Source: Sulfuricurvum sp.
Lineage (GTDB): Bacteria > Campylobacterota > Campylobacteria > Campylobacterales > Sulfurimonadaceae
Direction: 5' to 3'
Length of the DNA stretch: 64,000 nt
Assembly: GCA_028710885.1 (NCBI GenBank)
Contig: JAQTTG010000003.1
Location: 62,001-126,000, forward strand
Under the pieces are notes generated by a model that ran no database searches, had not been told where the DNA came from, and worked only from the letters and a program-made list of their open reading frames with translations. The position numbers and the translations under genes were made by a program. Below are positions 4,120 to 46,297 of this stretch, piece after piece; positions within the stretch are counted from its first letter, which is position 1; every line of letters starts with the position of its first letter.

Positions 4120-4193
4120 TGGAGGCGGCACCCGGATTCGAACCGGGGATCAGAGCTTTGCAGGCTCATGCCTTACCGCTTGGCTATGCCGCC
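4120..4193 (-). tRNA. tRNA-Cys(GCA)
   Basis: 74 bases on the minus strand, with acceptor stem GGCGGCA/TGCCGCC, discriminator T, encoded CCA, T-loop GGTTCGAATCC and anticodon GCA in loop CTGCAAA. Confidence 0.97.
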
Positions 4194-4200
4194 ACCATGG

Positions 4201-4287
4201 TGGTGCCCGGAGCCGGACTTGAACCGGCACAGTGTTACCACCGAGGGATTTTAAGTCCCTTGCGTCTACCGATTTCGCCATCCGGGC
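4201..4287 (-). tRNA. tRNA-Leu(UAA)
   Basis: 87 bases on the minus strand, with acceptor stem GCCCGGA/TCCGGGC, discriminator A, encoded CCA, a class II variable arm and anticodon TAA in loop CTTAAAA. It is seven bases upstream of tRNA-Cys in the same transcript. Confidence 0.97.
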
Positions 4288-4347
4288 ATCTGTAGAAAAA
4301 AATATCTCAGGTCAAACATTAAAAGATCAATGTTTCAACTGAGATTC

Positions 4348-4422
4348 TGGAGCGGGAAACGAGGTTCGAACTCGCGACCCCAACCTTGGCAAGGTTGTGC
4401 TCTACCACTGAGCTATTCCCGC
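4348..4422 (-). tRNA. tRNA-Gly(GCC)
   Basis: 75 bases on the minus strand, with acceptor stem GCGGGAA/TTCCCGC, discriminator T, encoded CCA, T-loop GTTCGAACC and anticodon GCC in loop TTGCCAA. It is the first gene of the four-tRNA transcript. Confidence 0.97.
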
Positions 4423-4441
4423 ATTGTTTTTGTGGACTGGA

Positions 4442-4470
4442 AGTATAGCAAAAAAAATATGGTGTGTAAA
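4442..4470 (-). promoter_or_regulatory. Sigma70 promoter of the tRNA operon
   Basis: On the minus strand a TTTACA -35 (4465-4470) and a TATACT -10 (4442-4447) are separated by exactly 17 bases. The -10 ends 20 bases before the tRNA-Gly 5' end. This is the best-formed promoter in the window, and it fits a highly expressed stable-RNA transcript reading Gly-Leu-Cys-Ser. Confidence 0.8.
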
Positions 4471-4532
4471 GAGTTTTGGGAAATTTCTCAGTATATTTTT
4501 AAATGCATATGTTTTTTAGAGTTGCACTTCGC

Positions 4533-4538
4533 TATAAT
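4533..4538 (+). promoter_or_regulatory. Candidate -10 box of ilvD
   Basis: A perfect TATAAT lies 37 bases before the ilvD ATG, with T-rich sequence upstream and no clear -35 box. It is arranged divergently from the tRNA promoter. Confidence 0.5.
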
Positions 4539-4574
4539 CGCGCTAATTAAAACAATAATATACAAAGGAATCCT

Positions 4575-6263
4575 ATGCGCAGTGATACCATTAAACGTGG
4601 ATTTGATAAAACTCCTCACCGTAGTTTGCTTCGGGCAACTGGATTAAAAGACGAAGATTTTAATAAACCTTTTATCGGCGTGGCAAATTCGCATATAGAT
4701 ATTATTCCGGGGCACTTTTTTCTCCAAGAGTACGGACGTATCGTCAAAGAGGCGATCCGCGAAGCGGGTGGGGTACCGTTTGAATTCAATACGATCGGCG
4801 TCGATGACGGTATCGCGATGGGACATGATGGTATGCTTTACTCGTTACCGAGCCGTGAGTTGATTGCGGACTCTATCGAGACGGTGATGAACGCGCACAA
4901 GCTTGATGGCCTTATCTGTATCCCTAACTGTGACAAGATCGTTCCGGGGATGCTGATGGGAGCGCTTCGCGTCAACGTTCCAACGATTTTTGTTTCGGGC
5001 GGACCGATGAAGGCAGGACACAAAAAAGATGGAACTCCGATTGATTTGGCAACGGCGTTCGAGGCGGTAGGGAAACATGCCGACGGTAAAATGTCCGATG
5101 AAGAGCTCTATGAGATTGAGTGTGAAGCGTGTCCGAGCGGCGGATCGTGTTCAGGAATGTTTACCGCCAACTCGATGAATACACTCTGTGAAGCGATGGG
5201 GGTTGCATTACCGGGTAACGGTACTGTTTTGGCGATGACGCCGGAGCGTATTGAGATGGTGAAAACGGCGGCACGCCGTATCGTCGAGATGGTAAAAGAC
5301 GAAAATTCTCAAAAATGGAATATGCAAAATATCCTCAATGAAAAAGCGATTCATAACGCGTTCGTCGTCGACATGGCGATGGGAGGAAGCTCGAATACCG
5401 TTCTTCACATGTTGAGTATTGCAAAAGAGGCGGGTGTTGATTTTGATATTACCCAAATCAACAAGATCAGTGAGAATGTTGCCCACATCGCGAAAATCTC
5501 TCCATCACTTTCAACTGTTCATATGGATGACATTAACCGTGCCGGCGGAGTCAATGCAGTTATGAAAGAGGTGAGCCGTCGCGGTGGAATTCTTCATACA
5601 GATGCGATGACCGTTACTGGTGAGACATTGGGTGAGCGTATCAAAGATGCGGTGATCAAAGACCCTAATATTATTCATACCAATGAAAATGCCTACTCTC
5701 CGGTTGGCGGACTCTCGATCTTGTTCGGTAATCTTGCAGAAGAGGGTGCGGTTGTCAAGACGGCGGGAATTACCCCTAATATGAGAGCTTTTAAAGGAAC
5801 TGCTGTCTGCTTTAATAGCCAACAAGAGGCGATTGCCGGAATCGTAGGGCATAAAGTCAAAGCGGGCGATGTCGTTGTTATCCGCTACGAAGGACCTCGT
5901 GGTGGTCCAGGAATGCAGGAGATGCTCGCCCCTACCGCGCTGATCATGGGGATGGGATTGGGCGAGAGTGTTGCTCTTATCACTGATGGACGTTTTTCGG
6001 GTGCGACTCGCGGTGCCTCGATTGGTCACGTAAGTCCAGAAGCAGCTGAGGGTGGTTTGATCGCCCTCATCGAAGACGGTGATGAGATTGAGCTTGACGT
6101 TGACAGTCATCTATTGCAGCTCAATGTGAGTTATGAGGTGCTTGAACAGCGTCGTCTCCACTGGAAACCGATCAAAAAAGAGATCCCTTCCAAATGGCTC
6201 AAACGCTACAGCCTTCTCGTCTCTAACGCTTCAAATGGTGCTGCGCTAAAAACTGAGCTTTAA
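4575..6263 (+). CDS. ilvD: Dihydroxy-acid dehydratase
   Basis: Third shared step of valine and isoleucine synthesis: it dehydrates 2,3-dihydroxy-isovalerate or -3-methylvalerate to the 2-keto acid. It also feeds leucine and pantothenate. The 562 residues match the family length. Cluster and metal-binding stretches are visible as CIPNCDK near residue 115 and [17 protein letters not shown] near 185-205, with GRFSGATRG in the C-terminal part. The ATG has AAAGGA upstream. It is a single gene with its own -10 box and an intrinsic terminator that lies inside the 3' end of the convergent pglF-like gene. Its G+C content is clearly higher than that of the pga genes to the left. Confidence 0.97.
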
Positions 6264-25752: not shown

Positions 25753-27135
25753 ATGATAGTCACCAGATTTGCTCCAAGCCCTACGGGGTATTTACATATC
25801 GGCGGTTTACGAACCGCATTGCTCAGTTATCTGTGGGCGCGCCGTAACAATGGAAAATTTTTGCTCCGTATCGAAGATACCGACTTTAGCCGAAACGATG
25901 AAGCCGCAGCTCTTGCGATTGTCGAAGCATTCAAATGGGTTGGATTGGAACATGACGGAACCATCGAATACCAATCCAGCCGATTGGCAATTTATCAAGA
26001 GTACGCCCAAAAGCTCCTCGATAGCGGTAAAGCCTACAAATGTTACATGAGCCGCGAAGAACTCGATGCATTGCGTGAAGAACAGAGCGCGCGTAAAGAG
26101 CGTCCGAAATACGATAACCGTTACCGCGATTTTACGGGGACTCCACCGGAGGGGCGCGAAGCGGTAATCCGTATCAAAGCCCCTTTGGAAGGATCGATTA
26201 CGGTACATGATGGGGTCAAAGGGGACGTTGTGTTCAACGTTGCTGATATACTCGATGATTTTATCATTGCCCGCGCCGATGGTACACCGACGTATAACTT
26301 CGTTGTTGCCGTCGATGATGCATTGATGGGGGTTACGGATGTTATTCGAGGCGATGATCATCTCTCTAACACCCCTAAACAGATCGTCGTGTATGAGGCT
26401 CTCGGCTTTCCGATACCGCGATTTTTCCATGTTCCGATGATCCACAACCATGAGGGCAAAAAGCTCTCAAAACGTGATGGTGCGACCGATGTAATGATGT
26501 ATAAAGAGATGGGTTATGCTCCTGAAGCACTGCTCAATTTCCTCGTCCGTTTAGGATGGAGTCACGGCGATCAGGAGATTTTCTCGATGGCAGAGATGCT
26601 CGAACTCTTTGATCCAAATGATATTAACCGCTCTGCATCGGTCTATAACGTTGAGAAACTTGACTGGCTCAATGCCCACTACATCAAAAACACGCCGAAC
26701 GACAAACTGTGCGAACTGTTGGAGTTTCACGGTGTGATGCTGGTCAGCCATGACAAACGCGAAATCTTGCTCGATGCGCTGAAAGAGCGTTCCAAAACGC
26801 TCGTCGAGATGGCCGCTCAGATCAATGAGATTTTGGTACGTCCTGCGGCATTTGATGAAGCGGCACTGAAAAAAGGGTACAAAGAGGAATCAAAAGCAAT
26901 TTTGATGAGTTTCGCAGAGGCATTAAAAAATAGTGCTGAGCTTCATTTACCAAGCGATTATCACCATGTGATGGAGAGTATTGTGGCACAGTTGGAGATC
27001 GGTTTCGGGAAAATCGGGCAACCGCTTCGCATCGCACTGATGGGGAAACTCTCAGGACCGGGATTGGATACGGTTATGGCGATTATCGGTGTGGACGAGA
27101 CATTGGCGCGTATCGAAGCGCTGTTAAAGCACTAA
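25753..27135 (+). CDS. gltX: Glutamyl-tRNA synthetase
   Basis: Class I aminoacyl-tRNA synthetase of 460 residues that charges tRNA-Glu (many Campylobacterota have two GltX enzymes, one of which charges tRNA-Gln). PSPTGYLHIGG at 8-18 is the HIGH region and KLSKRDG near 236-242 the KMSKS region. The anticodon-binding helical domain fills the C-terminus. The stop overlaps the convergent mqnA stop by four bases, and the terminator lies inside mqnA. Which tRNA is used cannot be decided from sequence alone. Confidence 0.95.
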   Translation: MIVTRFAPSPTGYLHIGGLRTALLSYLWARRNNGKFLLRIEDTDFSRNDEAAALAIVEAFKWVGLEHDGTIEYQSSRLAIYQEYAQKLLDSGKAYKCYMSREELDALREEQSARKERPKYDNRYRDFTGTPPEGREAVIRIKAPLEGSITVHDGVKGDVVFNVADILDDFIIARADGTPTYNFVVAVDDALMGVTDVIRGDDHLSNTPKQIVVYEALGFPIPRFFHVPMIHNHEGKKLSKRDGATDVMMYKEMGYAPEALLNFLVRLGWSHGDQEIFSMAEMLELFDPNDINRSASVYNVEKLDWLNAHYIKNTPNDKLCELLEFHGVMLVSHDKREILLDALKERSKTLVEMAAQINEILVRPAAFDEAALKKGYKEESKAILMSFAEALKNSAELHLPSDYHHVMESIVAQLEIGFGKIGQPLRIALMGKLSGPGLDTVMAIIGVDETLARIEALLKH

Positions 27136-37523: not shown

Positions 37524-38650
37524 TGCGTAATGTTTGGATCTATCTCGAAAACGGTACTTATCTAGAAGCCAAAAGTTTTGGTGCTGATACCACAGCTGTT
37601 GGAGAAATTGTATTCAATACATCGATGAGCGGCTATCAAGAGATTATTACTGACCCATCGTATGCTGGTCAGTTTGTAACTTTTACAATGCCTGAAATTG
37701 GAAATGTCGGTGTTAATAATGAAGATATGGAAAGTTCTCGTGCACACTGCAAAGGGGTAATTGTTCGTCAATATCAAAATGCGTATTCAAATTTTCGTGC
37801 TGAGGAAGCCTTGCATACATTTTTGGAAAAACAAGGGATTATTGGTATCTGCGATATTGATACTCGCTATATCACCAAAATGCTCCGTAGTGAGGGGGCA
37901 ATGATGATGATAGCTTCGACTAAAGTGAGTGACAAAGAAGAGCTCAAAAAAATATTAGAGAATTCGCCTCGTATTGAAGAGATAAACTATATCGAAGAGG
38001 TAAGCACAAAAACCGCCTACACTCATCGCAACGGTATTTATGATCCGTTTAATTTCCGATATAACGAAGCCGCTGCACCGAAAGCACGTATTGCTGCGAT
38101 CGACTTCGGGGTAAAACGTAATATTCTCAATGAACTCACTGAAGCTGGTCTCGAGGTTGAAGTTCTCCCTAATACTTTCAATGCGGATGAGCTTATTGCC
38201 CGTTATGATAATAAAGAGATCGATGGTGTATTTCTCTCTAATGGTCCGGGAGATCCTCTTGTCCTTAAAAAAGAGCAAGAAGAGATTAAAAAATTGATTG
38301 AGCGTAAAATACCGTTGTTTGGGATTTGTTTAGGACATCAACTTCTCTCTATTGCACATGGCTACGATACTCATAAGCTTAAATTCGGTCACCATGGTGG
38401 GAATCATCCGGTCAAAAATGTGAAAACAGGAATGGTAGAGATTACGGCACAAAATCATAACTATAACGTTCCTGAATCGGTACGTGAAATCGCTGAAGTG
38501 ACCCATATTAACCTTTTCGACAATACCATTGAGGGGCTTCGCTACAATAGCGGTCATGTCTTTTCGGTTCAGCATCATCCTGAATCAAGCCCAGGTCCAA
38601 AAGAGAGCCGCTATATTTTCAACGAATTTCTTCAACTTCTTCAACGCTAA
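37523..38650 (+). CDS. carA: Carbamoyl-phosphate synthase small subunit
   Basis: Glutaminase subunit that supplies ammonia to CarB for carbamoyl phosphate, used in pyrimidine and arginine synthesis. The 375 residues fit. The N-terminal CarA domain (1-150) has NTSMSGYQEIITDPSY. The class I amidotransferase domain has GPGDP, nucleophile Cys in GICLGHQ near 264-270 and the HHPE base near 351. carB is not in the window. Ends in a clear terminator. Confidence 0.96.
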   Translation: MRNVWIYLENGTYLEAKSFGADTTAVGEIVFNTSMSGYQEIITDPSYAGQFVTFTMPEIGNVGVNNEDMESSRAHCKGVIVRQYQNAYSNFRAEEALHTFLEKQGIIGICDIDTRYITKMLRSEGAMMMIASTKVSDKEELKKILENSPRIEEINYIEEVSTKTAYTHRNGIYDPFNFRYNEAAAPKARIAAIDFGVKRNILNELTEAGLEVEVLPNTFNADELIARYDNKEIDGVFLSNGPGDPLVLKKEQEEIKKLIERKIPLFGICLGHQLLSIAHGYDTHKLKFGHHGGNHPVKNVKTGMVEITAQNHNYNVPESVREIAEVTHINLFDNTIEGLRYNSGHVFSVQHHPESSPGPKESRYIFNEFLQLLQR

Positions 38651-38654
38651 TAAC

Positions 38655-38681
38655 AAAAAGAGGATAATATTTCCTCTTTTT
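38655..38681 (+). terminator. Intrinsic terminator of carA
   Basis: Perfect 10-bp stem AAAAAGAGGA/TCCTCTTTTT with a 7-base loop, four bases after the carA stop. The 3' arm ends in five T, and the A-run on the other side would allow use in both directions. Confidence 0.85.
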
Positions 38682-38732
38682 GACGATAATTTTCCTTCAA
38701 AGTGTTACTTTTTTACCCCTGATTCTGTAAAT

Positions 38733-38756
38733 AAACTTAAATATATCGTTAAGTTT
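38733..38756. promoter_or_regulatory. Dyad AAACTTAA-N8-TTAAGTTT before ccoN
   Basis: Perfect 8-bp inverted repeat with 8-base spacer, about 190 bases before ccoN. It does not match the FNR box or the Nssr TTAAC-N4-GTTAA site. It could be an operator or only an AT-rich coincidence. Confidence 0.3.
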
Positions 38757-38833
38757 CAATAGTGTGAAAAACATTTAATAATTTAAGATTCCTCAAATAC
38801 TGCGGTTGCTATCATTAGAGTGTTTAATAGCCT

Positions 38834-38850
38834 ACTTTTGTTACAAAAGT
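38834..38850. promoter_or_regulatory. 17-bp palindrome before ccoN
   Basis: ACTTTTGT-T-ACAAAAGT, a perfect palindrome with 8-bp half sites, 90 bases upstream of ccoN. The form fits a dimeric transcription regulator better than an RNA hairpin, because only one base would be left for a loop. The regulator is unknown. Confidence 0.4.
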
Positions 38851-38855
38851 GTTAA

Positions 38856-38901
38856 GGGCACCTTTTATTTCATAATAATTTTTGTGGAATAAGAGGTGCC
38901 C
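38856..38901 (+). promoter_or_regulatory. Long hairpin in the ccoN leader
   Basis: GGGCACCTTTTATT (38856-38869) pairs with AATAAGAGGTGCCC (38888-38901): 14 bp with one G-T pair and an 18-base loop. No T run follows, so it is not a simple terminator. It ends 41 bases before ccoN and may be a 5'-UTR structure that stabilises the oxidase mRNA or takes part in control. Confidence 0.5.
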
Positions 38902-38941
38902 TAATAGGCTCTTATGCTTTGAATCTTTAAGGAGGTCGTAA

Positions 38942-40423
38942 ATGGAGAATCGTCCATTGGAGTATGATTACACAGTCGCGAAGATGTTTATGCTTACAAC
39001 TGTGTTACTCGGAATCGTCGGGATGCTTGTCGGCGTTATTTTGGCATGGGAAATGGCATTTCCTGCTGTCAATACTATCGCGGGTTCAGGATTGGCGGAA
39101 TACACAAATTTCAGTCGTCTACGCCCGTTGCATACAGATGCAGTAATTTTTGGATTTACCCTTAGTGGTATTTGGTCAACATGGTATTACGTAGGTCAAC
39201 GTGTATTGAAAGTATCGATGGCAGAATCAAAATTTTTGATGTTCCTCGGTAAATTGCACTTTGGTTTATATTTGCTAGTAGTTGTTTCGGTTGTTGTATC
39301 ACTTCTTTTAGGGGTTACTACTTCTAAAGAATATGCAGAGTTTGAATGGCCTATCGATATCGCTGTTGTTGTGGTATGGGTAACTTGGGGTATGTCAATT
39401 TTTGGTTTGATCGGTATTCGCCGTGAAAAATCATTGTACATCTCTATTTGGTATTACATTGCTACTTTCCTTGGAATCGCTATGTTGTACCTGTTTAACA
39501 ACATGGAAATCCCAACGTTTTTCGCTTCAGGTGGAATTGGTGCATGGTATCACTCTGTATCTATGTATTCAGGTACCAATGATGCATTGGTTCAATGGTG
39601 GTATGGGCACAACGCGGTTGCGTTTGGTTTCACAGTACCTATCGTTGCGATGATCTATTACTTCCTTCCAAAAGAATCAGGGCAAGCGGTTTACTCATAT
39701 AAATTGTCTCTTCTCGCATTCTGGGGATTGATGTTTGTTTACCTTTGGGCAGGCGGACACCATTTGATCTACTCTACAGTACCAGACTGGATGCAAACTA
39801 TGGGTTCTGTATTCTCTGTTGTATTGATTCTTCCATCATGGGGTTCAGCTATTAATATGCTCCTTACAATGAAGGGTGAATGGCAACAAGTTGCAGCAAG
39901 TCCATTGATTAAATTCATGATTCTTGCGTCAACATTCTATATGTTTTCAACTCTTGAAGGTCCAATCCAAGCGATCAAATCAGTTAATGCACTTGCGCAC
40001 TTCACAGACTGGATTGTCGGTCACGTACATGATGGTGTTCTTGGTTGGGTTGCATTTATGATTATGGCATCATTGTTCCATATGGCTCCACGTGTATTTA
40101 AACGTGAGATCTATTCAAAATCATTGATGAATACACAATTTTGGATTCAAACTTTGGGTGTTGTTCTTTATTTCACATCTATGTGGATTGCAGGTATCAC
40201 ACAAGGTATGATGTGGCGTGCTCATGATGAGTTTGGTAATCTTGCTTACTCATTTATTGATACGGTTGCAGTATTGCACCCATATTTCACGATCCGTGCG
40301 GTAGGGGGTACATTGTACTTCTTAGGTATGTTCTTGTTTGCATTTAACATGTACAAAACAATGACAAGCTCTCGCCGTGTTGAAGAGAGTGAATTACAAA
40401 ACGCGTCGCCTATGGGCGCATAA
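38942..40423 (+). CDS. ccoN: cbb3-type cytochrome c oxidase subunit I
   Basis: Catalytic haem-copper subunit of the high-affinity terminal oxidase for low oxygen. The 493 residues give about twelve membrane helices. Haem and copper ligands are visible in HTDAVIFGFTLS near 60, WWYGHNAVAFGF near 220-231, GGHHLIYSTVPDW near 271-283 and the haem His pair in VGHVHDGVLGW near 360-370. AAGGAGG precedes the ATG by six bases, the strongest ribosome site in the window. It heads a ccoNOQP operon with accessory genes. Confidence 0.97.
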   Translation: MENRPLEYDYTVAKMFMLTTVLLGIVGMLVGVILAWEMAFPAVNTIAGSGLAEYTNFSRLRPLHTDAVIFGFTLSGIWSTWYYVGQRVLKVSMAESKFLMFLGKLHFGLYLLVVVSVVVSLLLGVTTSKEYAEFEWPIDIAVVVVWVTWGMSIFGLIGIRREKSLYISIWYYIATFLGIAMLYLFNNMEIPTFFASGGIGAWYHSVSMYSGTNDALVQWWYGHNAVAFGFTVPIVAMIYYFLPKESGQAVYSYKLSLLAFWGLMFVYLWAGGHHLIYSTVPDWMQTMGSVFSVVLILPSWGSAINMLLTMKGEWQQVAASPLIKFMILASTFYMFSTLEGPIQAIKSVNALAHFTDWIVGHVHDGVLGWVAFMIMASLFHMAPRVFKREIYSKSLMNTQFWIQTLGVVLYFTSMWIAGITQGMMWRAHDEFGNLAYSFIDTVAVLHPYFTIRAVGGTLYFLGMFLFAFNMYKTMTSSRRVEESELQNASPMGA

Positions 40424-40437
40424 CAGAAGGGGGAAAT

Positions 40438-41130
40438 ATGTTTCATTGGTTAGAAAAACACCCGTTCTTTTTCGCGGTAGCGGTATTCGTTACCATCGCG
40501 TTTGCGGGGCTTATTGAAATTTTGCCAAACTTTGCAGAAGCGTCTCGTCCGGTTATCGGAACGAAACCTTATAGCACTTTGGAATTAGCTGGCCGTCACG
40601 TTTACATCAAAAACAGTTGTAATGCGTGTCACTCACAATTGGTTCGTCCATTTAAATCTGAAACTGACCGTTACGGTCATTACAGTTTGAGTGGAGAATA
40701 TGCATATGACCGTCCATTCTTGTGGGGTTCAAAACGTACTGGTCCTGACTTGATGCGTGTAGGCAACTACCGTACAACAGATTGGCATGAAAACCACATG
40801 AAAGATCCATCTGGAGTTGTTCCGGGATCTATCATGCCGGCATATACATGGATGTTTAAAAATACTGCGGATATTGATACTGCTTATGCAGAGCAAATAA
40901 CTGTTAATAAAGTATTTAATACACCTTATAACCAAGAACTTCCTATGGCTGATGGCACAAAAGCTACAGTTAAAATGGCAGCTACATTGGATGAAGCACA
41001 TGCTGATGCTCTTGCTGAAGCAAAAGTAATTGCAGCAGACATGAAAGATCAAGACGTTAAAGATGCGGTTGAAGCAGGTCAAATTCCTGAAATCGTAGCA
41101 CTTATCGCTTATCTTAACAGTTTGAAATAA
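40438..41130 (+). CDS. ccoO: cbb3 oxidase monohaem subunit
   Basis: Membrane-anchored c-type cytochrome that passes electrons from CcoP to CcoN. It has 230 residues with one N-terminal helix (about 10-30) and a C-x2-C-H haem site at C61, C64, H65; the axial Met is probably in GSIMPAYTWM near 137. Follows ccoN after 14 bases. Confidence 0.96.
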   Translation: MFHWLEKHPFFFAVAVFVTIAFAGLIEILPNFAEASRPVIGTKPYSTLELAGRHVYIKNSCNACHSQLVRPFKSETDRYGHYSLSGEYAYDRPFLWGSKRTGPDLMRVGNYRTTDWHENHMKDPSGVVPGSIMPAYTWMFKNTADIDTAYAEQITVNKVFNTPYNQELPMADGTKATVKMAATLDEAHADALAEAKVIAADMKDQDVKDAVEAGQIPEIVALIAYLNSLK

Positions 41131-41140
41131 GGAACATTGC

Positions 41141-41335
41141 GTGAATATTGGTACGATTCAAGCGTATGCTTACTTTTTTTTCGTCGCCTTTTTGGTGATA
41201 GTTCTGTACTCGTACATATACCATTTGTACAGTTCACAGAGAAAAGGGAAGCGCGATTATGAAAAGTACAGTAATATCGCGCTAAATGATGATATTACAG
41301 ACCAACCGGTCGAAGATATCTCAAAAAACGATTAA
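41141..41335 (+). CDS. ccoQ: cbb3 oxidase small subunit CcoQ
   Basis: A 64-residue single-helix protein (helix at about 8-30) with a charged C-terminal tail. CcoQ helps stability of the oxidase complex. The name is supported by the position between ccoO and ccoP and by the typical YSYIYHLY boundary; sequence conservation in this subunit is low. Confidence 0.88.
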   Translation: MNIGTIQAYAYFFFVAFLVIVLYSYIYHLYSSQRKGKRDYEKYSNIALNDDITDQPVEDISKND

Positions 41336-41352
41336 AAAAGTAGGAGGCATAA

Positions 41353-42282
41353 ATGAATAAGACTATACTTGCCGCTATCGCATTCGTACTTCTAATGGCG
41401 GGTGCAACCTATCTTGCGGTCGGCGGCGCCGGCGGTATGGGTGGAGAAGGCGATTGGGTCAATAAACTCGCCGTATTAGGTGCAGTTGTTCTATTTATTG
41501 TTACCACATTCGTAGTAACAAAATATGTTAGACAAATGCAAAATGACCGCGCTGGCGGTAAACTGGCTGATGAAAATTGGGATGGCATAGGTGAATTTAA
41601 AAACGAACTTCCTTTTGGTTGGGCTGTTATTTTCCTAGGTTTGACAATTTGGGCAATTTGGTATTTCCTTGCAGGATATCCAGTTAATGCGTATTCACAA
41701 ATTGGTGAATACAATGAAGAAGTAGCGGCACATGATGCTAAATTTGAAGCGCAATATGCAAATATGGATGATGCAACCCTAAAAGAAATGGGTGGATCAG
41801 TCTTTATCGTACAATGTGCTCCATGTCATGGGCTTCAAGCAGATGGTATGGATGGTAAAGCAGCTAATTTGAACCACCGTTTAGAAGAGAAATCAATTAA
41901 ACATGTGATCCAAAACGGTTCAAACAACCAAATTCTTGGTATGGAAATGCCTATGCCAGATCGTAATGGTTTGATGAATGCTAATACTGGTGCTTTGATC
42001 ACTGATGCTGAAATTGATGCAGTTACTAAATATGTAGCTGGTGGATTAAAAGGTACAGAAGGTGCTGATGTATTTGCAGGCGTATGTGCTGCATGTCATG
42101 GACCTGATGGTAAAGGTATGGATATGGTTGCTCCAAGTATTGCTGAATTCAATCCTACGCTTATCGCGAATGTATTGAAACACGGTAAAAAAGGTGCAAT
42201 CGGTCAAATGCCGGCATTTAATAACTTGACAGAAGTTCAAGTTAAAGCGCTTGGTGCGTATGTCACCAGCCTTAGCAAATAA
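41353..42282 (+). CDS. ccoP: cbb3 oxidase dihaem subunit
   Basis: Membrane-bound dihaem cytochrome c that accepts electrons for the cbb3 oxidase. It has 309 residues, with N-terminal helices at about 5-22 and 32-52 and another at about 95-115. Two haem sites are present: C155-x2-C158-H159 and C245-x2-C248-H249. The GGxGGMGGEGDW stretch after the first helix is glycine-rich and unusual in composition but lies outside the haem domains. Confidence 0.96.
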   Translation: MNKTILAAIAFVLLMAGATYLAVGGAGGMGGEGDWVNKLAVLGAVVLFIVTTFVVTKYVRQMQNDRAGGKLADENWDGIGEFKNELPFGWAVIFLGLTIWAIWYFLAGYPVNAYSQIGEYNEEVAAHDAKFEAQYANMDDATLKEMGGSVFIVQCAPCHGLQADGMDGKAANLNHRLEEKSIKHVIQNGSNNQILGMEMPMPDRNGLMNANTGALITDAEIDAVTKYVAGGLKGTEGADVFAGVCAACHGPDGKGMDMVAPSIAEFNPTLIANVLKHGKKGAIGQMPAFNNLTEVQVKALGAYVTSLSK

Positions 42283-42293
42283 GGAGAGTCATA

Positions 42294-42500
42294 ATGGAAA
42301 ATCGTAGTATTTTTGCATTGGACGGTATTACAGGGATGTTGATTGCAACTGTATTGTTGCTTTCAATTCTTGGATTCCTAACAATTTTGGGATTGGGTGC
42401 ACAGCAACATAATGCAGCAAACTTCTACCAAATTGAAAATGAAAAAGAGATCAAAATGATCAGCACTGATAATGCTGCTCATAAGATCGATGTAAAATAA
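42294..42500 (+). CDS. DUF4006 family membrane protein
   Basis: A 68-residue protein with one helix (about 12-36) that recurs after ccoP in Campylobacterota as DUF4006. The short C-terminal tail is charged. Function is unknown; constant linkage to cco genes suggests an assembly or stability part of the oxidase. Eleven bases after ccoP with AAGGAG. Confidence 0.82.
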   Translation: MENRSIFALDGITGMLIATVLLLSILGFLTILGLGAQQHNAANFYQIENEKEIKMISTDNAAHKIDVK

Positions 42501-42510
42501 GGAGTTTTAG

Positions 42511-42612
42511 ATGGCAAGTATCATGGATAAACTCATCACAATTGCATTAGTGATTTCTGCAGCGGTAACGTTGTGGGCGGTTGTTACACCGAATCACCTA
42601 TTCGTCGGTTAA
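42511..42612 (+). CDS. 33-residue membrane peptide in the cco operon
   Basis: A short reading frame with a good AAGGAG ribosome site, ten bases after the DUF4006 gene. The peptide begins MASIMDKLITIALVIS and has one hydrophobic helix (about 7-26), then PNHLFVG. It resembles the tiny single-helix subunits of other haem-copper oxidases in size, but I do not recognise it. It is easily missed by annotation because of its length. Position, ribosome site and topology support translation. Confidence 0.7.
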   Translation: MASIMDKLITIALVISAAVTLWAVVTPNHLFVG

Positions 42613-42621
42613 GGGTAGCTT

Positions 42622-43323
42622 TTGTTACTCTCGCGAGGGCTAGCGGCCCTCACCTTTTTATTCTTCTTTTCTCTTTCTCTTAATGCGGAATTTTTATATA
42701 AAGACGATGTTGTCAATAATCCTAAATTTGCAGAACAAATTAATGCAGTAGGCGCAGAGCTAAAAGCTAAAACAGGTGTCTCTCTTTACCTCGTTATGGT
42801 ACGAGATACTGAAGATAATCAAAGCATTGCAGAGTTTGAAAAGCAATTGGTTTCACAAGTTGGGGAACCTGCGGTAATTATGACATTTATAGAGCTTAAA
42901 CAGCAGGTCGATATTCTCGCTCGTCCCATCTCTTTATACAAACATTTTAACAAAGGACAAATCCTTAGTCCGAATGCAACTTTCATCGGTTCGGTGATAA
43001 GTGCAGCTATGTTCGCTCGAACATACGATGAAGCAAAAGAGTTTATTGTCAATCGTGGCGGTACAATTTTGCCTATATTGGGAGAAAAAACAAAGGGTGA
43101 TGATACTGTCAAAAAATATTCTGTTGCCATGTATAATGGATACAGTGATACGGCAGATCAGATTGCTGCTGCACAAGGAATATCCTTAAGTTCATCTGCC
43201 GGAAACGGGAGTAAAAACTTTATTGATATTATTCGATTAATATTTTACGGTATTATTCTTTACGGTCTCATCCGATATATACGAGGTCGATTTTTTACTC
43301 GTAAAAAGGATATCAATGTTTAA
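42622..43323 (+). CDS. TPM-domain membrane protein in the cco operon
   Basis: Protein of 233 residues that starts at TTG 42622 behind AAGGG. A signal sequence or helix covers 8-22. The middle part (about 25-160) resembles TPM domains (YgcG family) with GVSLYLVMVRD, and a C-terminal helix lies at about 205-222 with a basic tail. TPM proteins in other bacteria have been linked to phosphatase or membrane-repair roles, none proven here. It overlaps the fixH-like gene by eight bases, so an oxidase-related task is inferred from neighbours. Confidence 0.65.
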   Translation: MLLSRGLAALTFLFFFSLSLNAEFLYKDDVVNNPKFAEQINAVGAELKAKTGVSLYLVMVRDTEDNQSIAEFEKQLVSQVGEPAVIMTFIELKQQVDILARPISLYKHFNKGQILSPNATFIGSVISAAMFARTYDEAKEFIVNRGGTILPILGEKTKGDDTVKKYSVAMYNGYSDTADQIAAAQGISLSSSAGNGSKNFIDIIRLIFYGIILYGLIRYIRGRFFTRKKDINV

Positions 43324-43822
43324 AAATCCTGGTACAAAATGGCCTATCATAATTGCATTATCGATAGTTGCTGTTATAGGTTTTTCAGTTGCTACTATTA
43401 AAGCAGCGGTAACACATCCTGTCGAAATGTCTGATTATGCTATGCAAAATTATCATGATTATGATAATAATGTTAATGACATAATTAATGCGCAAATTTC
43501 TTTTGACAAAAAATATAGTATTTCCTTTTTAACTCCACAAGTTATGGAAAAAGGGACAGTTATTGTTTATCAAATAACAGATAAATCAGGTAAAGCTATT
43601 AATGATGCAAAAGTAGAATCTTTATTAACACGTCCTGATAACAAAGAGAGTGATATTAACCTTACAGCCCCAATTGCACATGAAGGGAAATATACTTTTA
43701 ATGCTGTCGATCTTCCAAAACCTGGGCGATGGGATATTTTGACAAAAATTACTATAGGAAATGATCAGCGTTTTTATAATCTAAAAGCTGATACGCGTAA
43801 TCCTAATACCTTCGAATTTTAA
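43316..43822 (+). CDS. FixH-like oxidase accessory protein
   Basis: A 168-residue protein with an N-terminal membrane helix (about 10-30) and an extracytoplasmic beta-sandwich domain. HPVEMSDYAMQNY after the helix and the KPGRWDILTKI strand near 141-151 match the FixH/CcoH family that helps assemble cbb3 oxidase. Last gene of the cco operon. Confidence 0.78.
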   Translation: MFKNPGTKWPIIIALSIVAVIGFSVATIKAAVTHPVEMSDYAMQNYHDYDNNVNDIINAQISFDKKYSISFLTPQVMEKGTVIVYQITDKSGKAINDAKVESLLTRPDNKESDINLTAPIAHEGKYTFNAVDLPKPGRWDILTKITIGNDQRFYNLKADTRNPNTFEF

Positions 43823-43830
43823 ATGCTTCT

Positions 43831-43860
43831 CTGGTTATTCTCGCATCAGCGAGAATCCAG
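43831..43860 (+). terminator. Hairpin at the end of the cco operon
   Basis: CTGG-TT-ATTCTCGC/GCGAGAAT-CCAG: an 8-bp inner and 4-bp outer stem with a 4-base loop and a TT bulge, nine bases after the fixH-like stop. No T run follows, so it may protect the mRNA end or aid termination rather than be a classic terminator. Confidence 0.5.
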
Positions 43861-43954
43861 TACAATTACTGCAAATAATAAACTTCAAATGAGCCTATTA
43901 TTATCCTTTGTATATGGATAGTAGACAATAAAGAAACAATCGGAGAAGTTACGT

Positions 43955-46297
43955 ATGAACAAAGAGTGCATAGTCTTTCCGACAGCTAGGTGCATACGAG
44001 AAGCAATTGAGCATTCTGTTGAGATCTTTTTACCTCAGACAATGACGATGGGAGAATTTCTCTCCCGTGCGTATGTTACGGTAGGGAGAATCATTCCAGA
44101 TGAAGATCTACGCTTATTGGCAATGCACGAAGCCTCTGATTTTTCCGCCTTTTCCGCACTTCAAATCGAGCGAAACTTTTTCAGTTTTATCCAAAATTCC
44201 GAGTATTTGTTTCGTTTTTTCGAAGAGCTCTCTTCGGAGCAGGTTTCGATAGAAGTTCTCCAATCGGTAGATGTTTATGGAGAATATGAAGAGCACATAG
44301 CAATTCTTAAACGGCTTCGTGAACGGTATAAAGAGATAGTTGAGCGCGAGGGGTGGGCGGATCGGATATTTAACTCCGAACACACAACTATACAGCACGA
44401 TTTTTTGCGTAACTTTGAGACGATTACCATTATGGTCGAGGGGTATTTGAGCCGACATGAAATCGCACTTTTACGAGAGTGTGCCAAACATCTTGAGATT
44501 ATTATTCTCTATAACACGACGTACTATAATAAAAAAATGACGACACGATTTGAGGAGATGGGATTTGCTCTCCAAGATGGGACGGAGTATCGATTATCCC
44601 TCAGTGAAATCAAAATTTTAGATGAGAGAGCGCTTCATATAAATCGAGATGTGACGTGTGAAGTGTTTCATACGCGTCTCTCGCAGATGGGATTTATCAA
44701 ATCATCTATCGAAGCATTTGTGCAAGAGGGGATTGCACCTGAGAAAATAGCGGTCGTATTACCCGATGAAGATGCGGCTACGATGTTAAAGGAGTTCGAC
44801 AGCGAGGGGAACTTCAACTTCGCGATGGGAGAGCCTTTTAGCAAGTGTACACTCTACAGAGAATTAGAGAGTATCATCCTCTTTTTAGACGAAGCGAGTG
44901 TTTTGAACCGTGAGAGAATCCGAAACATCAAAACGGAAACGATTGATTGGTTTAAAGCCCATTATCCGAAAAAATTTCACTTTTCACAGCTGGAAGAATT
45001 GACAGGATTGTTGGAAGGTGCCGATGAAGAGTCAATGGAGATCGTTCGTGATGAACTTCACCGTTTCAGTCACCTTTCTCATGCTTTAGAGATGATGGAT
45101 TTTAGAGCCGTATTTCGAATTTTTATGAACCGACTGGCTCAGCAGAGTATCGATGATGTCCGCGGGGGAAAAATCACCGTTATGGGGCTGTTGGAGACAC
45201 GCGGCGTTTCATTTGAGGGGGTAGTGATCGTCGATTTTAATGAGGGGTATGTCCCGCACAAAAGCGAGAAAGACCTCTTTTTGAACACCAAAACCCGTGA
45301 ATACGCAGGTCTTCCGAGCGCCCATGATCGCGAATCCCTCCAAAAACACTACTACTCGATCCTCTTTAACCGTGCCAAAAAAGTTGCACTCGGATGTGTC
45401 CAAAACGCCGAATCGGTACCATCGCGCTTTTTGCTTCAATTAGGGATTAAGAGTATCCCTGCACAGTATCGGTACGAAGAGGTATTATTCACAGCTGCGA
45501 GCTTTAACGTCCGGCAAGTGAAAAGCTATGAGTGTGAATACGATTTTACCGCCTATCCCCTCTCATCAAGCGGCATCAAAAGCTTTTTGAGCTGTAAAAG
45601 ACAATTCTATTATCGTTACATAGAGCGCATACGAGATCATGAACTACCGCGAGATCTTTCGCAAGAGCGAGATATCGGAAATGCACTGCACAGTGCGCTT
45701 GAGAAGGTGTTTACAGAGAGAAAGAGCTATTCCTCTGCAACTCAGATCAAAGAAGCTCTTCGTGCCGTGTGGGAAGAGAGTGGTGGTGATGATCCACTGG
45801 AACGACATATGAAACGGCTATGGCTCGATAAATTAGATCTCTTTTATGAGTATGAAGCATCACGCTTTGCATCGGGGGTACGGGTTCTTTATACCGAAAA
45901 AGAGATGAGTACGACAGTGGAGGGGATAACCCTCACCGGACGAGTCGATCGGATTGATGAAGCCGAGGGGAAATTCGAAGTGATCGATTATAAAAGCGGT
46001 AAATACCCCGATACTAACAAAGAACCAAAAGAGAGTGATGAGGATTATCAGCTCAGTGTGTATGCTCTTCTTGCGGGTGAGTTGGGGCAGGTGGCACGAT
46101 GCGGCTACTATGACTTGAATAAGGGAGAGTTGAAAATAGAGCAATTTTTGGAAGTGAAAATAGCCAAATTGCGTGAGATATTGGCGTATATGGCCTCTGC
46201 GAAAACATGGGAATGGGAGATGTGCGAGGAGCTGAGCCGATGCCGCTATTGTCCCTATGTCTATCTCTGCCATCGGGAGGTGATGCGTGGAGTTTGA
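43955..46297 (+). CDS. addB: AddB-like helicase-nuclease subunit
   Basis: Subunit of the AddAB enzyme that resects double-strand breaks for RecA. It has 780 residues, shorter than B. subtilis AddB. The N-terminal part is a degenerate helicase fold. The C-terminal PD-(D/E)XK nuclease shows GRVDRIDE and VIDYKSGK (about 648-675). An iron-sulfur set is visible: one Cys in FLSCKRQFYY near 548 and a C-x2-C-x5-C group (CRYCPYVYLC) near 765-774, the same spacing as in B. subtilis AddB. It overlaps addA by 11 bases. Confidence 0.9.
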   Translation: MNKECIVFPTARCIREAIEHSVEIFLPQTMTMGEFLSRAYVTVGRIIPDEDLRLLAMHEASDFSAFSALQIERNFFSFIQNSEYLFRFFEELSSEQVSIEVLQSVDVYGEYEEHIAILKRLRERYKEIVEREGWADRIFNSEHTTIQHDFLRNFETITIMVEGYLSRHEIALLRECAKHLEIIILYNTTYYNKKMTTRFEEMGFALQDGTEYRLSLSEIKILDERALHINRDVTCEVFHTRLSQMGFIKSSIEAFVQEGIAPEKIAVVLPDEDAATMLKEFDSEGNFNFAMGEPFSKCTLYRELESIILFLDEASVLNRERIRNIKTETIDWFKAHYPKKFHFSQLEELTGLLEGADEESMEIVRDELHRFSHLSHALEMMDFRAVFRIFMNRLAQQSIDDVRGGKITVMGLLETRGVSFEGVVIVDFNEGYVPHKSEKDLFLNTKTREYAGLPSAHDRESLQKHYYSILFNRAKKVALGCVQNAESVPSRFLLQLGIKSIPAQYRYEEVLFTAASFNVRQVKSYECEYDFTAYPLSSSGIKSFLSCKRQFYYRYIERIRDHELPRDLSQERDIGNALHSALEKVFTERKSYSSATQIKEALRAVWEESGGDDPLERHMKRLWLDKLDLFYEYEASRFASGVRVLYTEKEMSTTVEGITLTGRVDRIDEAEGKFEVIDYKSGKYPDTNKEPKESDEDYQLSVYALLAGELGQVARCGYYDLNKGELKIEQFLEVKIAKLREILAYMASAKTWEWEMCEELSRCRYCPYVYLCHREVMRGV

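Follow-up and report, generated by a model that had tools for sequence, protein, structure and literature searches.

The 33-codon frame between the DUF4006 and TPM-like genes of a Sulfuricurvum ccoNOQP operon is, by sequence comparison, ccoY, a gene already named in Campylobacter jejuni. On balance we favor the view that CcoY is a phylum-wide one-helix peptide of cbb3 oxidases that lies at the periphery of the enzyme, and that a conserved hairpin behind ccoY gives rise to more ccoNOQPXY than ccoZH message. Comparative analysis indicates that the hairpin at the ccoY/ccoZ position is a conserved, selected fold in most of the families examined. The peptide gene itself is ordinary and already published in C. 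jejuni; the hairpin at this junction appears to be undescribed.

The DNA analyzed, here called the window, is a stretch of 64,000 nucleotides from one contig of Sulfuricurvum sp. The operon is packed tightly at window positions 38942-43822 on the + strand in the order ccoN-O-Q-P, ccoX, ccoY, ccoZ, ccoH, and its CcoN is 94% identical to that of another Sulfuricurvum contig (L053). Its features are the following.

38942..40423, + strand: ccoN, cbb3 oxidase catalytic subunit (TIGR00780, 679 bits, above cut-off)
40438..41130, + strand: ccoO (TIGR00781, above cut-off)
41141..41335, + strand: ccoQ, GTG start (TIGR02736, above cut-off)
41353..42282, + strand: ccoP (FixP_N and Cytochrome_CBB3 above the Pfam cut-off; the TIGR00782 match is below its cut-off)
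42294..42500, + strand: ccoX (DUF4006), 68 aa (PF13179, 98.3 bits against a cut-off of 22)
42499..42504, + strand: AAGGAG, ribosome-binding site for ccoY (from sequence)
42511..42612, + strand: ccoY, 33-aa one-helix peptide MASIMDKLITIALVISAAVTLWAVVTPNHLFVG (conservation, pN/pS and match to the C. jejuni-type peptide)
42622..43323, + strand: ccoZ, TPM-like, TTG start, with a hydrophobic N-terminus and a C-terminal helix
42635..42651, + strand: predicted hairpin GAGGGC-TAGCG-GCCCTC with tail ACCTTTTTAT, in ccoZ codons 5-10
43316..43822, + strand: ccoH, FixH-like (PF05751, 38.8 bits against a cut-off of 23)

The four genes that the initial annotation placed after ccoP (DUF4006, the 33-codon frame, a TPM-domain gene and a FixH-like gene) were all found where it had put them, on the + strand. 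Its description of spacing and overlap typical of one transcript holds, with gaps of 10 bp (ccoX/ccoY) and 9 bp (ccoY/ccoZ), an 8 bp overlap of ccoZ with ccoH, and a gene set that forms one conserved cluster. The strong ribosome site claimed for the peptide is the AAGGAG that ends six bases upstream of the ccoY ATG, and the FixH-like label agrees with a PF05751 score above cut-off. A large gene lies 3' of ccoH at 43955-46297, which we take to resemble an AddB-type helicase-nuclease, and a protein similar by eye follows ccoH in L064.

The TPM assignment fared less evenly: the fold search ranks TPM-type structures first, but the window protein scores below the Pfam cut-off for PF04536 (17.9 bits against 22.1, E 0.0032), a family matched at E ≤ 0.01 by 7 of 16 aligned CcoZ members. 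The predicted CcoZ model is of modest confidence (pLDDT 73), and a single match reached E ≤ 0.001, that to AtTLP18.3 (3pvh, E 6.8e-4). It was followed by 8ovc_V (1.5e-3), 6hwh_O (9.4e-3) and 6adq_J (3.6e-2), chains of the Mycobacterium smegmatis supercomplex to which the model is similar with query TM-scores of just 0.23-0.27, and which are probably MSMEG_4692, to judge from PMC8267372. As far as a predicted model allows, these matches agree with the published TPM reading of CcoZ (PMC8267372).

The ccoY frame carries the marks of a real gene. With fixed criteria (25-45 aa, hydrophobic, an SD-like motif), an open reading frame was found directly 3' of DUF4006 in 78 of 81 loci: 32/33 of the same genus, 16/18 from other families and 30/30 of family f14. 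Under the same criteria the rates were 8/405 after other same-strand open frames, 0/46 on the opposite strand, 82/1620 at random points and 24/1620 in shuffled sequence. The same-genus miss (L024) carries a 29-aa form, and in the two other-family misses (L048 and L051) the peptide sits further downstream. In L048, ccoG (4164-5633) stands directly behind ccoX and before ccoY (5646); a ccoG-like start likewise follows ccoX in L051, with ccoY further on (5683), and in L253, a locus too short to reach ccoY. The same-genus set of 29 distinct sequences gives a pN/pS of 0.24, with variable codon positions numbering 28 of 33 at the third base, 16 at the first and 11 at the second. The peptide also has a conserved end of TPNHLFVG type. 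The window peptide lies above the hydropathy threshold, between ccoX (DUF4006) and ccoZ (TPM), and matches no model in Pfam or NCBIfam. The initial annotation had proposed retention of the frame behind DUF4006 in relatives as a check on its peptide; the conserved position and the pN/pS value uphold that proposal and the view that the gene is conserved and linked to the oxidase, indicate that the frame is under purifying selection and rule out a chance open reading frame at 42511-42612.

What did not survive is the suggestion that the peptide might be unrecorded, which the published ccoY rules out. The C. jejuni genes cj1486c, cj1485c, cj1484c and cj1483c were deleted in a 2021 study that named the first three ccoX (DUF4006), ccoY and ccoZ (TPM/DUF5130) and identified cj1483c as the ccoH homologue; oxidase activity required ccoX and ccoH, and ccoY and ccoZ were important for it (PMC8267372). 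Cj1485, now CcoY, resembles the window peptide in its 33 residues, its one predicted helix and its place between ccoX and ccoZ; it differs in that its contribution to full oxidase activity comes from C. jejuni mutants (PMC8267372), the window peptide being one predicted in a Sulfuricurvum-type environmental genome. Nine putative supercomplex components were recovered by mass spectrometry after blue-native gels, with CcoX, CcoZ and CcoH and without CcoY (PMC8267372), which counts against CcoY as a subunit. Tryptic analysis can miss a peptide of about 33 residues. The deletion cassette contained a promoter and lacked a terminator to limit polar effects, and no genetic complementation of the ccoX, ccoY or ccoZ mutants was found in the available portion of that article (PMC8267372). 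Elsewhere cj1485c appears in a list of down-regulated transcripts, which shows that its RNA can be detected (PMC7099621).

The window was tied to cj1485c through the gene-specific part of the published cj1485c primer, which was searched in two genera. It was found in none of the 20 genomes searched in one genus (≤1 mismatch) and in 7 of 43 of another (≤2 mismatches), exactly in three (G151, G290 and G133). G151 has a 33-aa frame at the primer site and a next gene of 200 codons from its ATG, lengths equal to those printed for Cj1485 and Cj1484 (PMC8267372); with the exact primer match, this suggests that G151 belongs to C. jejuni or to a very close relative. Window CcoY and the open reading frame at the primer site are identical at 16 of 33 residues (48%, pair E 7e-11), a number that none of 20000 shuffles reached (best 11). 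In addition, a profile built from 22 same-genus CcoY peptides found the primer-site frame as its only significant match in each of L207, L208 and L209 (E 4.4e-13, 9.6e-14 and 9.1e-14, respectively).

The phylum was surveyed in 397 genomes, each at least 90% complete. DUF4006 is present in 380 and ccoN in 381 (378 above its cut-off), and a ccoY profile, built partly from genomes on which it was then run, matched at E ≤ 0.1 in 311, chance matches included. Matches of the chance type were seen in G061 (0.025) and G092 (0.051), both without ccoN. Seventy of the non-matches are f14 genomes, 30 of 100 f14 genomes being matched, several of them weakly (hand count); outside f14, ccoN is present without a ccoY profile match in G273, G417 and G429, the ccoN match of G429 being weak. 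A small hydrophobic frame of divergent sequence nevertheless occupies the ccoY position in all 30 fetched f14 loci. The same-genus CcoY profile found nothing significant in L177, L180, L188, L199 or L070, and since it does not recognize the f14 peptides, ccoY orthology in that family rests on position. L070, from an uncultured Helicobacteraceae bacterium, carries an f14-type peptide. L177 and L178 (f14) encode a divergent peptide of 35 aa, MKFTTLEKILALMVVATILMTIVISFVPNLFLFST, from a start 4 bases before DUF4006 ends, and have no strong hairpin there. By this survey, ccoY goes with the cbb3 oxidase in almost all of the sampled phylum.

Just behind ccoY, within ccoZ codons 5-10, a terminator scan flagged GAGGGCTAGCGGCCCTC at 42635-42651. 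The region as a whole holds 6 terminator-like sites against a shuffle mean of 3.8 (sd 2.3), and with counts so near the mean a single prediction meant little before comparative tests; a search of 38600-44000 against Rfam gave one match, at chance level (E 0.39). The window hairpin is a borderline case in these tests, ranking in the top 3.4% of 205 same-strand blocks for fold energy. Its arms are identical in 49 of 50 readable loci of the window's family (51 given), the search pattern demanding the arms and the sole non-match, L137, keeping GGG, GCC and CTC by reading; these hairpin codons are thus used in 50/50 loci, while the codon for the loop leucine takes all four third bases. The palindrome GAGGGC-N5-GCCCTC occurs in 65 of 81 window-family genomes against 5 of 81 for the reversed control, its position behind ccoY having been checked for part of them. 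The stem sequence being almost invariant in this family, covariation is absent there, and the U tails behind the hairpin are weak. A one-mismatch copy of the palindrome lies elsewhere in the window, at 26452-26468. A second predicted hairpin, AGGGTAGC...GTTACTCT, spans the ccoZ ribosome site and TTG start at 42608-42634; L018 has a similar one, and this structure could couple translation of ccoZ to that of ccoY.

Beyond the window's family, the local fold energy behind ccoY was ranked at each locus against all other same-strand blocks, the loci in this ranking, in the junction comparison and in the synonymous-codon test being not independent, as near relatives and repeated genomes are included (for example, L056 is the contig of L034 and L067 that of L046; L133-L162 and L207-L209 repeat several genomes). 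The fold behind ccoY lay in the top 5% in 15 of 16 analyzed loci of other families (18 given), in 14 of 16 named contigs (21 given; these and L070 were assigned to groups from sequence and title), in 20/30 of L133-L162, in 3/3 C. jejuni-type loci, in 14/30 of f14 and in 8/32 of the same genus. When junctions were compared outside f1 and f14, the position behind ccoY reached the top 5% in 22 of 23 loci (mean -15.6 kcal/mol). Behind each of the seven other operon genes, between 0 and 5 of 23-25 loci did so, with means of -5.3 to -8.3 kcal/mol. Within f14, 16/33 loci reached it behind ccoY and no more than 1 behind any other gene; L045 (family f2) was counted with f14 in the junction and synonymous tests and, in the junction test, also in the other group. 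The stems at the ccoY/ccoZ junction of other families occupy the same place with quite different sequences. In L048 and L051, where ccoY lies away from ccoX, the stem stays behind ccoY, and in L048 it reads as a textbook terminator shape with eight T. The hairpin is missing (-0.7 kcal/mol) behind the ccoXY copies that have no ccoZ after them (L221 and L226, from genomes G378 and G414); each of these two genomes carries a second DUF4006 match. Taken together, these comparisons tie the hairpin to the place where ccoY meets ccoZ.

Covariation was counted in two family alignments from which some loci were left out (L037, L246, L255, L264, L271 and L272 from A3; L221, L222, L225 and L226 from A2), those omitted from A3 including f11 loci with weak folds (L271, -6.2; L272, -4.2); the f9 and f11 alignment samples were taken from hit lists and are non-random. 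Cells changed on both sides numbered 25 in A3 (26 sequences) against 9.2 in shuffles, and 6 in A2 (16 sequences) against 1.3. In both alignments, none of the 500 shuffles reached the observed number of compensatory-change cells, number of paired cells or covariation score, and sliding the pairing lowers the values. By the two measures that the tool rates least sensitive to relatedness, A3 does not stand out, with 4 pairs with double change against 3.5 (283/500 shuffles as high) and 9 further pair types against 9.6 (481/500); A2 stands out by one of them, with 3 such pairs against 1.0 (9/500 as high), and not by pair types (106/500 as high). Since the shuffles keep relatedness, more weight is placed on recurrence across families and on the codon test than on covariation counts. 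For A4, the alignment of family f20, RNAalifold predicted no pairs, most likely as MAFFT leaves the stems of that family unaligned, and A4 was kept out of the counts.

The mechanism that we propose is the following. An mRNA hairpin would form just after ccoY, in the codons for the ccoZ signal peptide, and, through partial transcription termination or protection of the 3' end, would leave more ccoNOQPXY than ccoZH message, a difference that would set the amounts of subunits relative to assembly or linker factors. CcoY most likely packs as a peripheral helix on the oxidase or on a Qcr-oxidase assembly, where it may help the assembly or stability of the enzyme. Translation of ccoZ runs through the hairpin, and a ribosome arriving from ccoY could therefore, we conjecture, keep the hairpin from forming. 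A more specific version is tentative, and we hold it a little short of probable: an attenuator in the ccoZ signal-peptide codons of most Campylobacterota, with fold kept while sequence changes, would divide the subunits N, O, Q, P, X and Y from substoichiometric Z and H, and would mark CcoX and CcoY as true subunits.

Of the 119 loci whose fold is -8 kcal/mol or better, 50 have at least five T in the 8 nt after the stem, and the overall excess is small (3.9 T in 8 nt against 3.3 in the following sequence), the tail rows for the window, L007, L021, L031, L072, L137, L149 and L266 being among those that use a longer or alternative hairpin and not short-stem tails. Given U tracts in many loci but weak ones in the window's family, termination, 3'-end protection and translational control are all conceivable, and attenuation is favored. 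A hairpin acting on translation, by limiting or timing initiation of ccoZ or by slowing the ribosome as the signal peptide emerges, and leaving transcription unaffected, would suit the poor tails of the window's family, the second upstream hairpin predicted over the ccoZ ribosome site in the window, and the start of the stem about 13-20 nt behind the ccoZ start (in the window, L041, L048 and L207, by eye), within the first ccoZ codons; the terminator-like stem with a U tract in several families (L041, L048, L068, L143 and L254-L259) tells against it, and we consider it unlikely. The same U tracts, found in many families, favor termination over a role of the stem in shielding the 3' end of a ccoNOQPXY message processed by endonuclease cleavage, a doubtful reading to which conservation of the stem even where the U tract is weak does lend something.

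It is highly improbable that the hairpin is a by-product of hydrophobic signal-peptide coding, with its leucine, alanine, glycine and phenylalanine codons. This stretch is rich in T and low in complexity, and when synonymous codons were shuffled within ccoZ with protein and codon usage kept, the window gave p=0.053 and 33 of 167 loci lay above 0.05. The other 134 of 167, however, beat the shuffles at p ≤ 0.05 (f1 34/49, f14 20/35, f9 18/18, f20 16/16, f11 27/30, others 19/19), two of 169 loci (L024 and L044) having been dropped and L048, L051, L221, L226, L234, L255, L264, L252 and L253 left out by choice. The invariant GGG, GCC and CTC beside a freely varying third base in the loop leucine, and the lack of a comparable fold at other operon junctions, likewise oppose a coding by-product. 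We also think it very unlikely that CcoY has no function as a protein and that its frame merely couples translation to ccoZH, the mutant phenotype being a polar effect. ccoY usually stands directly before ccoZ, and its deletion alters the neighborhood of the hairpin; yet amino-acid conservation, with the low pN/pS and the conserved TPNHLFVG-type end, the published cassette with promoter and without terminator (PMC8267372), and the existence of ccoXY copies with no ccoZ behind them speak for a functional peptide.

Several known systems invite comparison with the favored reading of a peripheral peptide and an attenuating hairpin. A CcoY profile searched against PDB sequences returned no oxidase chain at E ≤ 10, a 33-residue profile having little power. 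The tiny CcoM of cbb3 oxidase is presumably a chain of 5djq. Kinship of CcoY with CcoM was considered and finds no support in that low-power search, which gave no oxidase chain. The resemblance lies in the description: CcoM of Pseudomonas stutzeri is also a tiny one-helix peptide of a cbb3 oxidase (PMC8267372), of 36 aa (PMC10433244). Within the same phylum, CioY of C. jejuni is a peptide of 34 aa, for the most part a single helix, whose gene follows those of a terminal oxidase (PMC11955535); it is likened here by description and belongs to the CioAB oxidase, whereas CcoY belongs to the cbb3 enzyme. Among the literature matches listed, with subscription papers and supplements outside their range, no description of the hairpin behind ccoY was recognized. 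The nearest is the HRC-8-4 motif of Rhodobacterales, a structured element found after ccoNOQP and before the assembly genes ccoGHIS (PMC8632094); it is likened by description and, unlike the ccoY/ccoZ hairpin, sits before ccoG, in another class of bacteria. Term-seq and RNA-seq data for C. jejuni NCTC11168 have been deposited as GSE230837 and GSE230835, the Term-seq set covering the wild type and RNase mutants (PMC11187230).

The gene carries the finding made in C. jejuni over to almost all of the phylum sampled, and it takes a divergent form in the Helicobacteraceae-type family f14. If the hairpin acts as proposed, it would explain how different amounts of subunits and assembly factors arise from one transcript, and it would make ccoY and ccoZ deletions harder to interpret.
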